From an uncultured Nitrosomonadales bacterium (GTDB taxonomy: Bacteria; Pseudomonadota; Gammaproteobacteria; Burkholderiales; Gallionellaceae), in the NCBI GenBank assembly GCA_903885165.1, contig CAISHO010000147.1:1-32345 (forward strand): a stretch of 32,345 nucleotides of DNA. The letters run 5' to 3'. Below, one piece after another: positions 536-26,385 of the stretch. The notes below the pieces were generated by a model. It saw only the letters and a list, made by a program, of their open reading frames with translations, did no database searches and was not told where the DNA came from. The position numbers and the translations under genes are program-made. Each line of letters starts with the position of its first letter. Position 1 is the first letter of the stretch.

Positions 536-1804
536 TTAGTTGAGCGCGGGTTCGGCGCCCTTGGGGAACAGCACCCACATCTGGCCGCGCTGCTTCATAC
601 GCCCGGCCTGTGTACCGGCCTGATCGCCAAACCCCCAAAAGAAATCGGCACGCACTGCACCTCGAATCGCCCCACCGGTATCCTGCGCCAACATCAAACG
701 GTTGAGCGGTTCAGTCGTATTGGGAAAAGTGGTGGACAAAAACACCGGCGAGCCCAGCGGTATGGTGCGCGGATCGATCGCGATGCTGTATTGATCAGTC
801 AGCGGCACGCCCAGCGCACCCAATGGTGCCGACAAGCCATCAGGCAATTCTCGAAAAAAAACATAGCTGGGGTTTTGTTCCAGCAGCGCCGCCAGTTTCG
901 CCGGATGTTGTTCCGCCCAGTGTTTAATGCCCTGCATCGAAGCTTGTTCCGCCTTGAGTTCGCCCATCTCAATCAGCTTTTTACCGATAGAGATATAGGG
1001 TCTGCCATTCTGGTCTGCGTAACCGACTTTCACCAGTTGACCATCCGCCAGCTCTATACGCCCAGAACCTTGAATTTGAAGAAAAAAAAGTTCAACCGCA
1101 TTTTCTACCCAGAACAGCTCACGCCCACGCAGTGCACCGCGACCTTCGTCGATTTCAGCACGATTGAAGTAGGGCACGATGCGGTGGCCATCCAACCGGC
1201 CGCGCAGACGCAAATCTTTCAATTGAGGATAAACTTCAGATAAATCAATGGTCAGCAGATCGTCCGGCGCAGCATACAAAGGATATTTAAAGCGCGCAGT
1301 TTTAACCCGACTGCCGGCCAATTTAGGCTCGTAGTAACCGGTAATCAGACCGTAATCAGACCCGTCCGGATTGAACACCTGATAAGGTGTGAACGCCTCT
1401 TCAAAAAATACGCGCAACGCGTCATTATCAGCCTTGTTCAAGTCGTTTGCCCGCGCGCATACGTCCTTCCATTCACGCTTGTTTTTCAGCGTATGGCACC
1501 CTTGCATAAAGGCGTCCCAGCTCGGTTTTAAATTGACGGCATGCCAGTCTGGCAACATTTCCCACTTGCTGACCGAAAACGGCGCAGCGACCGGTGCAAC
1601 AGGCGGCACAATGGCAGGAATACAGGTTGGCAGTGCAATCTGTGGTTTAGGCGCAACAGTACACGCCGCCAGAAACGGCAACATCGCCAGTGCTAAACGC
1701 AGCGGGAACTTAACGTTAAACGCGCGCCAGCATTCGTTCGCTCCTTCCCCCGCAAGCGGGGTGGGGGAAGGTTGAGATGGAGGAACGGGCATGGCGGGTT
1801 TCAT
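536..1804 (-). CDS. mltA: Membrane-bound lytic murein transglycosylase A (MltA), lipoprotein
   Basis: MltA cleaves the glycan strands of peptidoglycan, leaving 1,6-anhydromuramic ends, and is anchored to the outer membrane as a lipoprotein. The 3D-type C-terminal domain is clear (DTGGAIRGAVRADFFWGFGD). The central MltA domain includes LITGYYEP and FFLQIQGSGRIEL. From the ATG at 1804 the product is 422 aa with a lipobox LAAC ending at Cys48. The n-region is unusually long, about 31 residues, and contains the translated repeat PLAGEGANE (see 1732-1793). An ATG at 1792 is an alternative start. An ATG at 1846 lies inside apaG and is less likely. A ribosome-binding-like AAGGAC lies rather far (about 11 nt) before 1804. 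It follows apaG by 28 nt on the same strand, so the two are probably co-transcribed. Confidence 0.92.
   Translation of the reverse strand: MKPAMPVPPSQPSPTPLAGEGANECWRAFNVKFPLRLALAMLPFLAACTVAPKPQIALPTCIPAIVPPVAPVAAPFSVSKWEMLPDWHAVNLKPSWDAFMQGCHTLKNKREWKDVCARANDLNKADNDALRVFFEEAFTPYQVFNPDGSDYGLITGYYEPKLAGSRVKTARFKYPLYAAPDDLLTIDLSEVYPQLKDLRLRGRLDGHRIVPYFNRAEIDEGRGALRGRELFWVENAVELFFLQIQGSGRIELADGQLVKVGYADQNGRPYISIGKKLIEMGELKAEQASMQGIKHWAEQHPAKLAALLEQNPSYVFFRELPDGLSAPLGALGVPLTDQYSIAIDPRTIPLGSPVFLSTTFPNTTEPLNRLMLAQDTGGAIRGAVRADFFWGFGDQAGTQAGRMKQRGQMWVLFPKGAEPALN
1732..1793 (-). repeat. Dispersed palindromic repeat (about 62 bp) inside the mltA signal-peptide region
   Basis: This segment is nearly identical to 25728-25785 inside amgK. 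By eye the two differ by five substitutions, one 5-bp indel and one 1-bp indel. The centre is a palindrome (CCCCCGC-AA-GCGGGGG-like), and the element ends in AACGGGC[AT]TG. Translated in mltA it gives PLAGEGANE, read in the same frame as in amgK. A shorter 13-bp core, CCCCGCAAGCGGG, recurs at 2322-2334. No transposase or target duplication is visible. Confidence 0.75.
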
Positions 1805-1834
1805 TATTAGGTGTGTCCTTTTGACATGCCCGTT
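1784..1834. repeat. Inverted repeat AACGGGCATG / CATGCCCGTT across the apaG-mltA junction
   Basis: The arms 1784-1793 and 1825-1834 are perfect 10-bp inverted copies separated by 31 nt. The right arm overlaps the apaG stop codon, and the left arm coincides with the end of the palindromic repeat in mltA. The same arm sequence recurs at 2471-2505 before ilvA. Confidence 0.6.
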
Positions 1835-2210
1835 AGTGCAAAACACGCGGGACGCTCAGGACAAATTCAGGGATTTCAACCTCAAAATCGTCACCATCGT
1901 CGGTGCGCATCTGATAGCTGCCACGCATCGTACCCACCTGAGTGGCTAACGCGGTGCCACTGGTGTATTCAAAGCTCTGATTGGGTCGCAACAGGGGTTG
2001 CTCGCCAACCACCCCCTGGCCTCGCACTTCCTGCACGTGATTAAACGCATCGGTGATCACCCAGTGGCGACTGATTAGTCTGGATGTCACTGTGCCCAGG
2101 TTAGTAATACTGATGGTGTATGAGAATACAAAACGATCAGCCGACTCGTCGGACTGATCAGGCAGGTATTTCACCTGTGTTTGAATAATAATGCCATGTT
2201 GTTTTTCCAT
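1833..2210 (-). CDS. apaG: ApaG domain protein (DUF525)
   Basis: A 125-residue protein of the ApaG family, which has an immunoglobulin/fibronectin-III-like beta-sandwich fold. In enterobacteria apaG mutants affect cobalt and magnesium homeostasis, but the biochemical role is poorly defined. Family signatures visible are YTISITNLGTVTSRLISRHW and the C-terminal MRGSYQMRTDDGDDFEVEIP. The full length matches the usual size of about 125 aa. No good Shine-Dalgarno sequence precedes the ATG at 2210. It lies upstream of mltA on the same strand. In many proteobacteria apaG sits with ksgA/rsmA, pdxA and surA; here those genes are about 26 kb away, so this apaG has a different neighbourhood. Confidence 0.92.
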   Translation of the reverse strand: MEKQHGIIIQTQVKYLPDQSDESADRFVFSYTISITNLGTVTSRLISRHWVITDAFNHVQEVRGQGVVGEQPLLRPNQSFEYTSGTALATQVGTMRGSYQMRTDDGDDFEVEIPEFVLSVPRVLH

Positions 2211-2309
2211 GCGTCACATTGGAACCGATTTTACCGAGGCTAGCAAGAGATAAAGCACGCAATTGATATGAAATTTGCGAAGCAGCTCGTTTGCATGGCT
2301 GCGCCCCCC

Positions 2310-2337
2310 TCGCTACGCTCTCCCCGCAAGCGGGAGA
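2310..2337. repeat. Fragment of dispersed palindromic repeat upstream of ilvA
   Basis: The segment contains TCGCTACGC (2310-2318) followed by a near-palindrome at 2319-2337 with one bulged base. Its 13-bp core, CCCCGCAAGCGGG (2322-2334), is identical to 1748-1760 in mltA. The flanks differ from the mltA and amgK copies, so this may be a related family or a degraded copy. Confidence 0.5.
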
Positions 2338-2426
2338 TAACCAGCGACTTGGCTGGCGTACTGTGACAGCCTAGTCGAATGGCTAGTTTTTTCATCAGGA
2401 TTGCAGAGTACACGCAAGGAGTAGGC

Positions 2427-2462
2427 CGTGTTTGTAAAGCCGACAAGTCGGCAACAAACACG
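2427..2462. repeat. Strong hairpin upstream of ilvA
   Basis: The outer arms CGTGTTTGT (2427-2435) and ACAAACACG (2454-2462) pair perfectly over 9 bp. The inner arms GCCGAC (2439-2444) and GTCGGC (2447-2452) pair over 6 bp around an AA loop, with a small asymmetric bulge (3 versus 1 nt). No T-run follows, so it is not a classical terminator. It could be a leader RNA structure or a dispersed repeat unit. Confidence 0.6.
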
Positions 2463-2470
2463 CTCAGGGA

Positions 2471-2505
2471 AACGGGCATGAAAAATTTATAATGTCATGC
2501 CCGTT
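2471..2505 (+). promoter_or_regulatory. 11-bp inverted repeat around a TATAAT box, candidate ilvA promoter/operator
   Basis: The arms 2471-2481 and 2495-2505 are perfect 11-bp inverted copies with a 13-nt AT-rich spacer. The spacer contains TATAAT at 2488-2493, a perfect sigma-70 -10 hexamer, 56 nt before the ilvA ATG. No good -35 box is seen at 16-18 bp spacing. A protein bound to the arms would cover the -10 box. Because the same 10-bp arm also occurs at 1784-1834, it may instead be a dispersed repeat. Confidence 0.4.
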
Positions 2506-2549
2506 ATGCTAATCTGCACAACTGAAAAGCAAATCAACACGACGACAAC

Positions 2550-25299: not shown

Positions 25300-26385
25300 T
25301 TAAAATCCATAACCGGTCGGCGCTTCCTGTGGCGGCTCCAGTTCATTGAGCAGATTAAACAAGGGTTTTAAATCGACATAACGTGCGCAGGCTGCACGCA
25401 AATACTCCATCACCAGCGGCATGTCTTTGAGATAGCCATCCTTACCGTCGCGATGAGATAGGCGTGCAAAGATGCCCAACACCTTGATGTGACGTTGCGC
25501 CCCCATCCACTCGTAGTCCCAATAAAACTGACCGAAATCTGCATGCACCGGCAAGCCCGCTTTGCGCGCCTTTTCCCAATACCCGATCAGCCAGTCGATG
25601 ATCTCCGGCTCTTCCCACTTGATGTACGCATCCTTGAACAAGGAGGCCAGATCGTAGGTGATAGGGCCATACACCGCGTCCTGGAAATCGATGACGCCGG
25701 GCGAAGTTAAACAATGATCGCGCAGCGATTCGTTTGCTCCTTCCCCCGCTAGCGGGGGAAGGTTGGGAAGGAGGGAACGGGCTTGCCCGGTGGGTTCGGT
25801 GATCATCAAATTGCGCGAGTGATAATCGCGATGTACATACACACGCGGTTGCGAGAGATTATTGGCAACGATACGGGCAAATACCTGTTCCAGTTTAGCT
25901 TGTTGTTTATCACTCAGTGTTATTCCCAGATGTTTGGCTATGTACCATTCCGGAAAAAGATTTAATTCCCGGCGCAACAGCGCCTCGTCATAGGGCGGCA
26001 GTGCATCAGGACTGGAGGCGAGCTGAATTTTAATCAGCGCATCGGTGGCAGCACCATACATCGCGCGCGCATTATCCGGCGTCAATGCCTGCAAATAGGT
26101 GGTATTGCCCAGATCAGACAAGAGTAAAAATCCCTGTGCCAGATCCTCTGCATACACATGCGGCACATGGGTTCCGGCATCCTCGAACAGGCGTGCCACA
26201 TGCAGAAAAGGACGGCAATCTTCATGCTCAGGCGGCGCATCCATGACGATGCGTGTCGAGCCATCTTCGAACGTTGCGCGGAAGTAGCGGCGGAAACTGG
26301 CATCGGCAGAAGCGGGAGCCAGCGTAAAGGGGACACCGGGAAATTGGCTTTGCAGCCAGAGGTTAAGTTGTTGCTGACGTTTCAT
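25300..26385 (-). CDS. amgK: N-acetylmuramate/N-acetylglucosamine kinase, with an in-frame repeat insertion
   Basis: AmgK phosphorylates MurNAc (and GlcNAc) at the anomeric position in peptidoglycan recycling. The 361-aa product has the aminoglycoside-phosphotransferase fold: SFRRYFRATFEDG near the N-terminus, the catalytic loop HRDYHSRNL (H185, D187, N192) and the metal-binding VIDFQDAVYGPITYDLASL (D233). Between them, about residues 199-229 form an insertion of about 31 residues containing PLAGEGANE, the translation of a dispersed repeat. Relatives as I recall them run almost directly from the TEP to the GV(I/L)DFQDA segment. Both catalytic motifs remain intact, so the enzyme may still be active. 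It is divergent from lptD across 61 bp with a 10-bp inverted repeat. Confidence 0.9.
   Translation of the reverse strand: MKRQQQLNLWLQSQFPGVPFTLAPASADASFRRYFRATFEDGSTRIVMDAPPEHEDCRPFLHVARLFEDAGTHVPHVYAEDLAQGFLLLSDLGNTTYLQALTPDNARAMYGAATDALIKIQLASSPDALPPYDEALLRRELNLFPEWYIAKHLGITLSDKQQAKLEQVFARIVANNLSQPRVYVHRDYHSRNLMITEPTGQARSLLPNLPPLAGEGANESLRDHCLTSPGVIDFQDAVYGPITYDLASLFKDAYIKWEEPEIIDWLIGYWEKARKAGLPVHADFGQFYWDYEWMGAQRHIKVLGIFARLSHRDGKDGYLKDMPLVMEYLRAACARYVDLKPLFNLLNELEPPQEAPTGYGF
25728..25785 (-). repeat. Dispersed palindromic repeat (58 bp) inside amgK
   Basis: Nearly identical to 1732-1793 in mltA, lying in the same orientation and frame relative to its host gene. It encodes most of the insertion between the kinase catalytic loop and the metal-binding aspartate. 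Its centre CCCCCGCTAGCGGGGG is a perfect 16-bp palindrome. No stop codon occurs in the translated frame. Confidence 0.8.

Follow-up and report, generated by a model that had tools for sequence, protein, structure and literature searches.

The window analysed here is a stretch of 32,345 nucleotides from an uncultured bacterium of the Gallionellaceae, and it contains three copies of one palindromic repeat, two of them within minus-strand genes (Table 1). One gene encodes an APH-type kinase, for which we keep the name AmgK assigned in the initial annotation, and the other a protein with MltA and 3D domains. The initial annotation had described elements of 58 bp in amgK and 62 bp in mltA that yield the same peptide, and both copies proved to be real, PLAGEGANE being read in frame in AmgK (...NLPPLAGEGANESLRD...) as well as in the MltA ORF (...SPTPLAGEGANECWR...). 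The sizes given were too small, since the mltA copy matches a 123-bp consensus from end to end.

Table 1 Features of the window related to the palindromic repeat
Feature	Position	Strand	Remarks
mltA ORF as listed, GTG start; MltA and 3D domains within residues 167-426	536..1846	-	
Long-form element, full length, at the 5' end of mltA	1710..1836	-	81% identity to the 123-bp consensus, end-to-end match
Third, diverged copy with extra internal sequence	2269..2506	+	Placed by eye; between the ORF at 1833-2210 and the ORF at 2550
amgK ORF (APH-type kinase, 361 aa)	25300..26385	-	Pfam APH, 8.7e-33
Net in-frame insertion in amgK, 87 bp (29 codons, residues 199-227)	25705..25791	-	Match of relatives splits between about 198 and 228
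Collapsed element in amgK	25718..25789	-	90% identity to the short consensus, its positions 3-73 of 85

The Pfam APH match of AmgK falls into two stretches, the best of which covers residues 22-198 and stops at the insert. The minus-strand reading around the insert is ...HRDYHSRNLMITEP TGQARSLLPNLPPLAGEGANESLRDHCLT SPGVIDFQDA..., which places it between HRDYHSRN and DFQDA, as had been proposed; the net gain is 29 residues rather than the originally estimated 31 or so (199-229). AmgK is present in 59 of 61 genomes, and most matches split at the insert with contiguous DNA, representing an empty site. The loop in most relatives is short (e.g. VTEPNPGII), and it measures 38 aa in the window genome against 9-10 aa in most near relatives. 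Further measurement of the HxDxxxRN-DxQDA loop at 116 single-ORF loci (out of 118 loci, some being one assembly entered twice) gave 9-17 aa at 96 and 26-72 aa at 20, so the long loop is far from being common to all homologues. In an AlphaFold2 model of AmgK based on 59 sequences (mean pLDDT 91.1), residues 200-225 and the last four residues scored below 50, and the insert is accordingly modelled as a disordered loop. The best PDB match is 3csv, a putative aminoglycoside phosphotransferase.

Roughly 45 codons at the beginning of the listed mltA ORF, which near its start reads ...MKPAMPVPPSQPSPTPLAGEGANECWRAFNVKFPLRLALAMLPFLAAC..., belong to the element, and a lipoprotein-like signal (LALAMLPFLAAC) comes after it. 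Because the MltA match begins at residue 41 of the window ORF or later in 15 of 15 relatives searched, the element forms an N-terminal extension rather than an internal insertion, and it probably also supplies the start region. The claim that one element is translated within two unrelated proteins thus holds for AmgK, where the insert is internal, and is weaker for MltA. The third copy, whose ends were located by eye (left TGAAATTTGCGAAGC..., right CATGCCCGTTA), is absent from the BLAST list obtained when the window genome was searched with the amgK segment. It contains extra palindromic sequence (ACTTGGCTGGCG...TAGTCGAATGGCTAG), and by eye a related piece also occurs at locus L018 and in the AmgK inserts of L107 and L133.

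When 23 loci were aligned with their flanks, the 58-bp amgK segment turned out to be the core of a longer dispersed palindromic unit. In the orientation that gives the peptide, the long form starts at TAACGGGCATGG, followed by a loop, CCATGCCCGTT and a C-rich linker; then come the CCCCCGCAAGCGGGGG hairpin and GGCAAACGAATCGCTACGCGAGTTTCAC, and the unit ends in GTTAA after about 123 bp. A collapsed form of about 85 bp, in which AACGGGCAAGCCCGTT is fused, is found in amgK and several other genes. The unit, spanning roughly TAACGGGC to GTTAA, could fold as two strong hairpins. Hairpin z-scores were -5.4, -3.5 and -3.25, the last being that of the amgK copy (-19.1 kcal/mol), for which equally good folds appeared in 2 of 200 shuffles. 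The 20-bp core has three matches in the window, two of which are one palindromic site seen on both strands, and none in any of 100 shuffles, which is beyond chance.

A search of the window genome (2.44 Mb in 151 contigs) with the amgK segment returned 33 matches, corresponding to 25 distinct places at E ≤ 10 and 19 at E ≤ 0.001 once both-strand and split hits were merged. The short consensus gave 35 matches in this genome and 40-43 in each of four relatives, in a DNA census of five genomes in which 40 candidates per genome were scored and part of the listed places were fetched. The dispersed character suspected in the initial annotation is therefore evident in the window genome and in its relatives. 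The 123-bp consensus was detected at E ≤ 0.01 in 32 of 37 genomes of the genus (its own included) and in 1 of 24 genomes from other families of the order. Across 399 genomes sampled from the order, the 85-bp form matched 61 at E ≤ 1e-6; many of the matches outside the family span just the C-rich hairpin core (about positions 17-60), which belongs to a wider repeat superfamily. In several species (L055, L057, L122, L144, L148 and L153), the C-rich repeat core is also found at the junction of amgK with its downstream gene. Among the fetched loci, 132 distinct copies were classed, 34 as ORF-internal (in ORFs of 120 aa or more, with 40 or more codons remaining on either side; unverified ORFs included) and 98 as not. 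Since the form classifier placed 73 of the 132 in the class "other", we make no claim about short versus long forms in genes. Four ORF-internal loci (L203, L233, L294 and L244) have no Pfam match.

Names of the insert-bearing proteins other than AmgK come, unless said otherwise, from Pfam matches and partly from known motifs, and are what we take these proteins to be. Internal in-gene cases in the window genome are AmgK, a MidA-type methyltransferase and HisH, the last with a core-related repeat on the opposite strand. Peptide matches and ORF scans in relatives revealed inserts in an SDR protein, HsdR (two sites), FtsY and a DsrO-like Fe-S protein, and on the N-terminal side of AmpD. According to Pfam, inserts lie within, between or beside the domains of a HyfG/NuoC-like protein, ComEC, GlnE (two sites), CysH, Ogt, MidA, FtsY, HsdR and the HisH of the window genome; a helicase has two on the opposite strand. 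The best copies of relatives further include BioF in two genomes, a NasA-like protein and a KTSC-domain protein in which the insert lies after the domain. An alignment of 12 inserts showed likeness across these unrelated proteins, the peptides resembling [N/D]GQARxPxPNPLPQAGEGANESLR. The hsdR genes of G011 and G010 (L116, L308) each have two element copies, at the same two sites in both species.

Empty sites were found for several of these genes. The ftsY gene is exactly 84 bp shorter, between CCGGA and TGCG, in 8 of 11 other genomes searched, and MidA is 38-39 aa shorter in 9 genomes (117 bp, or 114, at the DNA level). Further DNA-level empty sites were identified for the SDR, Fe-S protein, KTSC and BioF genes. 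The element adds an apparently floppy loop of about 30 residues while the gene stays open, the enlarged proteins being putatively translated and active. In G008, some 0.9 kb downstream of the complete ftsY, there is a further fragment (C7:258826-259026) that matches the C-terminal 67 residues of FtsY.

The initial annotation had suggested a small mobile or dispersed element. The dispersal and the empty sites agree with mobility; mobilising machinery was not found. In a set of 17 copies selected because both ends are present, TAA is found to the left (before CGGGC) in 12 and to the right (after the final GT) in 15, and 11 copies have both. Candidate terminal inverted repeats amount to just TTAACG/CGTTAA, about 6 bp. 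No target-site duplication was detected in these 17 copies, a three-base match occurring in 11 against 10.6 in shuffles and none reaching four bases. One explanation would make the element a MITE with the ends TTAACG and CGTTAA, mobilised by a DDE transposase for which TAA is the target or the duplicated sequence. An insertion sequence with the ends TAACGGGCATG and CACGTTAA would be a candidate mobiliser. The TAA on both sides of 11 copies speaks for it, as does the 5' region of mltA in G029, which reads TGCATTAACTT where the window has TGCACTAACGGG...CGTTAAGTT; but the empty sites in ftsY and the KTSC gene have no TAA target, nor did an insertion sequence with these ends turn up incidentally, and we regard this explanation as possible without favouring it.

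A RAYT or IS200-type HUH (Y1) transposase as mobiliser, which would make the element a REP/REPIN-type repeat, seems unlikely to us. Strong hairpins would suit such a system, and Y1 transposase matches exist in the five genomes searched; in addition, a different, GTAGG-bearing palindrome in the MidA gene of G008 occurs at 11 distinct places of that genome at E ≤ 0.001, MidA included. Against this, the full element was present at none of 17 Y1 loci in the five genomes, where flanks of up to 1.5 kb (shorter at contig ends) held one 38-nt core match, and the copies with both ends show TAA-type ends instead of a GTAG tag beside the stem. RAYT was thus rejected as the cognate transposase, and no transposase or autonomous partner of the element emerged from these 17 loci. 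The reading that we prefer, a non-autonomous repeat, would have it moved by a transposase acting in trans.

The orientation and reading frame of the in-gene copies were compared with those that the element itself allows. Thirteen of 16 verified sites are in sense orientation, against 13.6 expected from the frames left open in 89 full-length copies. The terminal repeats of the consensus carry stops in all three antisense frames, and an open sense frame exists in 62 of the 89 copies, an open antisense frame in 15. The copies in genes are therefore mostly in sense orientation because of the antisense stops in the terminal repeats. The frame containing ANESLR is used at 11 of the 16 sites (HsdR at two sites, FtsY, MidA, HyfG-like, ComEC, CysH, the second GlnE site, BioF, NasA-like and KTSC), while its share of open core frames is 0.223 (P = 9.5e-5). 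The other five sites are the first GlnE site, Ogt, the helicase twice and HisH. These 16 omit AmgK, the starting point, and the SDR and Fe-S proteins, seen only through peptide similarity. A stricter count without FtsY, MidA and one HsdR site, which DNA searches had found and peptides also matched, gave 8 of 13 (P = 0.0026). The short consensus was partly built from in-frame copies, so some bias remains in the frame test.

Stops alone account for the orientation and leave the frame choice unexplained, as ANESLR is used at 11 of 13 sense sites and makes up 28 of 83 open sense frames (P = 2.4e-4). This remaining preference likely reflects tolerance of, or selection for, the peptide of the ANESLR frame. 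A stronger version, that the insert is kept as a useful peptide in the manner of a portable linker, could draw on the similar peptides at insertions in unrelated proteins, on a frame share where about a third was predicted and on the many species whose AmgK has the insert. The same bias results if a disordered peptide is simply tolerated, and AmgK works without the insert in most relatives, as far as conservation shows; we therefore consider usefulness beyond mere tolerance quite improbable.

The history of the AmgK insertion was examined with a tree of 71 distinct rows from which the loop had been removed (84 supplied, 13 duplicates dropped, 32 more distant rows left out). Eighteen rows have the insert, and the insert label changes 15 times, close to chance (shuffled mean 16.3), with at least five changes forced by well-supported branches. 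The insertion looks old rather than recent, and patchily kept or lost, because the right junction TCGCC is found in 15 of 18 distinct filled alleles (exceptions L124, L132 and L133). One gain with many losses or exchanges cannot be separated from several gains, while independent insertions as the sole cause of the patchiness are disfavoured by the junction common to 15 of 18 alleles. Local recombination was also considered as the cause of the patchiness and rejected, as no breakpoint appeared between the window genome and G003 (identity 55-86% per 100 nt); the 95% identity of the C-terminal AmgK protein is conservation. Further repeats are nested in frame within the AmgK insert at L107, L131, L132, L133 and L141. 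Other repeats are inserted in frame elsewhere in AmgK, near residues 40 and 102 in G010 (L052), near 40 in G026 (L108) and near 102 in G013 (L107). That the loop is an ancestral kinase feature resembling the repeat by chance is highly implausible: the similar right junction of the 15 filled alleles would fit it, but the loop DNA is 90% identical to a dispersed repeat whose copies already contradict it, the same peptide is found in unrelated proteins, and no loop exceeds 17 aa at the 33 distant single-ORF loci (L166-L199).

Some loops have received different repeats. At about the position where MidA of the window genome has the element, G008 (L321) has the GTAGG-bearing, REPIN-like palindrome mentioned above, translated in frame (DNA CGTGTAGGTCGGGATTCATCCCGAC...). 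In FtsY, the site is occupied by a TTCGACCCGGCTCAGG palindrome in G007 and by a few extra residues in G013 and G009. At the HisH site, three different inserts occur in the window genome, G010 and G003, the region is short in G015 and G011, and about 26 residues are missing in six other genomes. As a counter-case, the foreign repeat of MidA in G013 lies at another position of the protein, and the SDR and Fe-S sites showed no second repeat among the few relatives shown. We read the reused loops as permissive sites under selection, rather than as evidence of targeted insertion. It is a tentative suggestion, which we hold to be somewhat improbable, that a few loops (AmgK, MidA, FtsY and HisH) serve as shared landing pads in the Gallionella lineage, receiving at about the same place across species the element, the GTAGG-bearing palindrome, TTCGACnnGGCTCAGG-type repeats and nested combinations, all in frame. 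If so, core enzymes would keep gaining new loops from palindromic repeats, and every filled and empty pair would be a natural loop-insertion experiment.

The analogy with Rickettsia palindromic elements (RPE) drawn in the initial annotation fits the behaviour of the element. Passages of PMC2229807 and PMC10969869 describe RPE and Wolbachia palindromic elements (WPE) as short dispersed palindromes that are intergenic and also in frame in unrelated conserved proteins, with a recurring peptide; WPE-like inserts are covered in part of PMC4224334, and an RPE-bearing Rickettsia guanylate kinase is translated and active according to a passage of PMC2229807. The element is likewise a short palindromic repeat dispersed in the genome, inserted in frame in unrelated conserved genes with insert-free homologues, and its preferred frame gives related peptides (11 of 16 sites; 8 of 13 in the stricter count). 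Its host, in contrast, is a betaproteobacterial lineage outside the Rickettsiales, several repeat types use the same protein loops here, and the likeness is one of behaviour. By behaviour, it may be called an RPE-like protein-invading palindrome.

Two other known systems are comparable. Intragenic GTAG/CGTC REPs are also palindromes inside ORFs of known proteins; in the passages of PMC3733652 concerned, more than half form dimers or groups encoding 20-30 residues, and they occur in O. terrae, Thioalkalivibrio and others, so the phenomenon is not confined to Rickettsiales. Their hallmarks are a tag of four nucleotides at the base of a stem of 20-40 bp and, for GTAG-class copies, a position flanking a RAYT gene, whereas the element has no GTAG/CGTC tag at the stem end, has mostly TAA-type termini (17 copies), consists of two hairpins in a unit of 85-123 bp, and has no adjacent RAYT at the 17 Y1 loci. 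ERIC/RU-1, Yersinia RU-2 and the Neisseria Correia/NEMIS MITEs are, in passages of PMC2229807, MITE-like units of about 100-170 bp whose open reading frame is joined to host ORFs in frame, and the intragenic form of NEMIS is the one without stops. They differ from the element in their unrelated hosts; the element further shows no target-site duplication and is inserted internally in several core enzymes. We found no published description of the element in the open-licence literature, and the passages of PMC4886054, a paper in which the words Gallionella and palindromic both occur, concern CRISPR or genomic-island repeats. The kind is already known from RPE/WPE and intragenic REPs, and the element looks like a new family of it.

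Taken as a whole, we consider it highly probable that the element represents a palindromic repeat family of the Gallionella lineage that is dispersed and non-autonomous, behaving as follows. Most sampled copies lie outside ORFs and a minority in frame within conserved proteins, where a surviving copy has to keep the frame and is usually in sense, the antisense frames carrying the terminal stops. Among the sense frames the Pro/Gly/Ala/Glu-rich one is preferred, probably as the best-tolerated disordered loop. Purifying selection would act on insertions, those that remain being nearly neutral for the protein, and the AmgK insertion looks like an old one; it is patchy among species and itself invaded by further repeats.

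Palindromes that invade proteins are familiar chiefly from Rickettsia and Wolbachia, with intragenic REPs reported in some other bacteria, and Gallionella-type bacteria are environmental iron oxidisers. The family described here has many copies, lies in frame in about a dozen protein families and has empty counterparts in close relatives, which provides unusually clear before-and-after pairs. The cases in AmgK, FtsY, CysH and BioF are open to direct assay. If translated, the inserts would give peptides such as SLLPNLPPLAGEGANESLR. With the element, the odd inserts of about 30 residues and the extended N-termini of Gallionella-type proteins find an explanation; both affect alignments, start calls and structure models.
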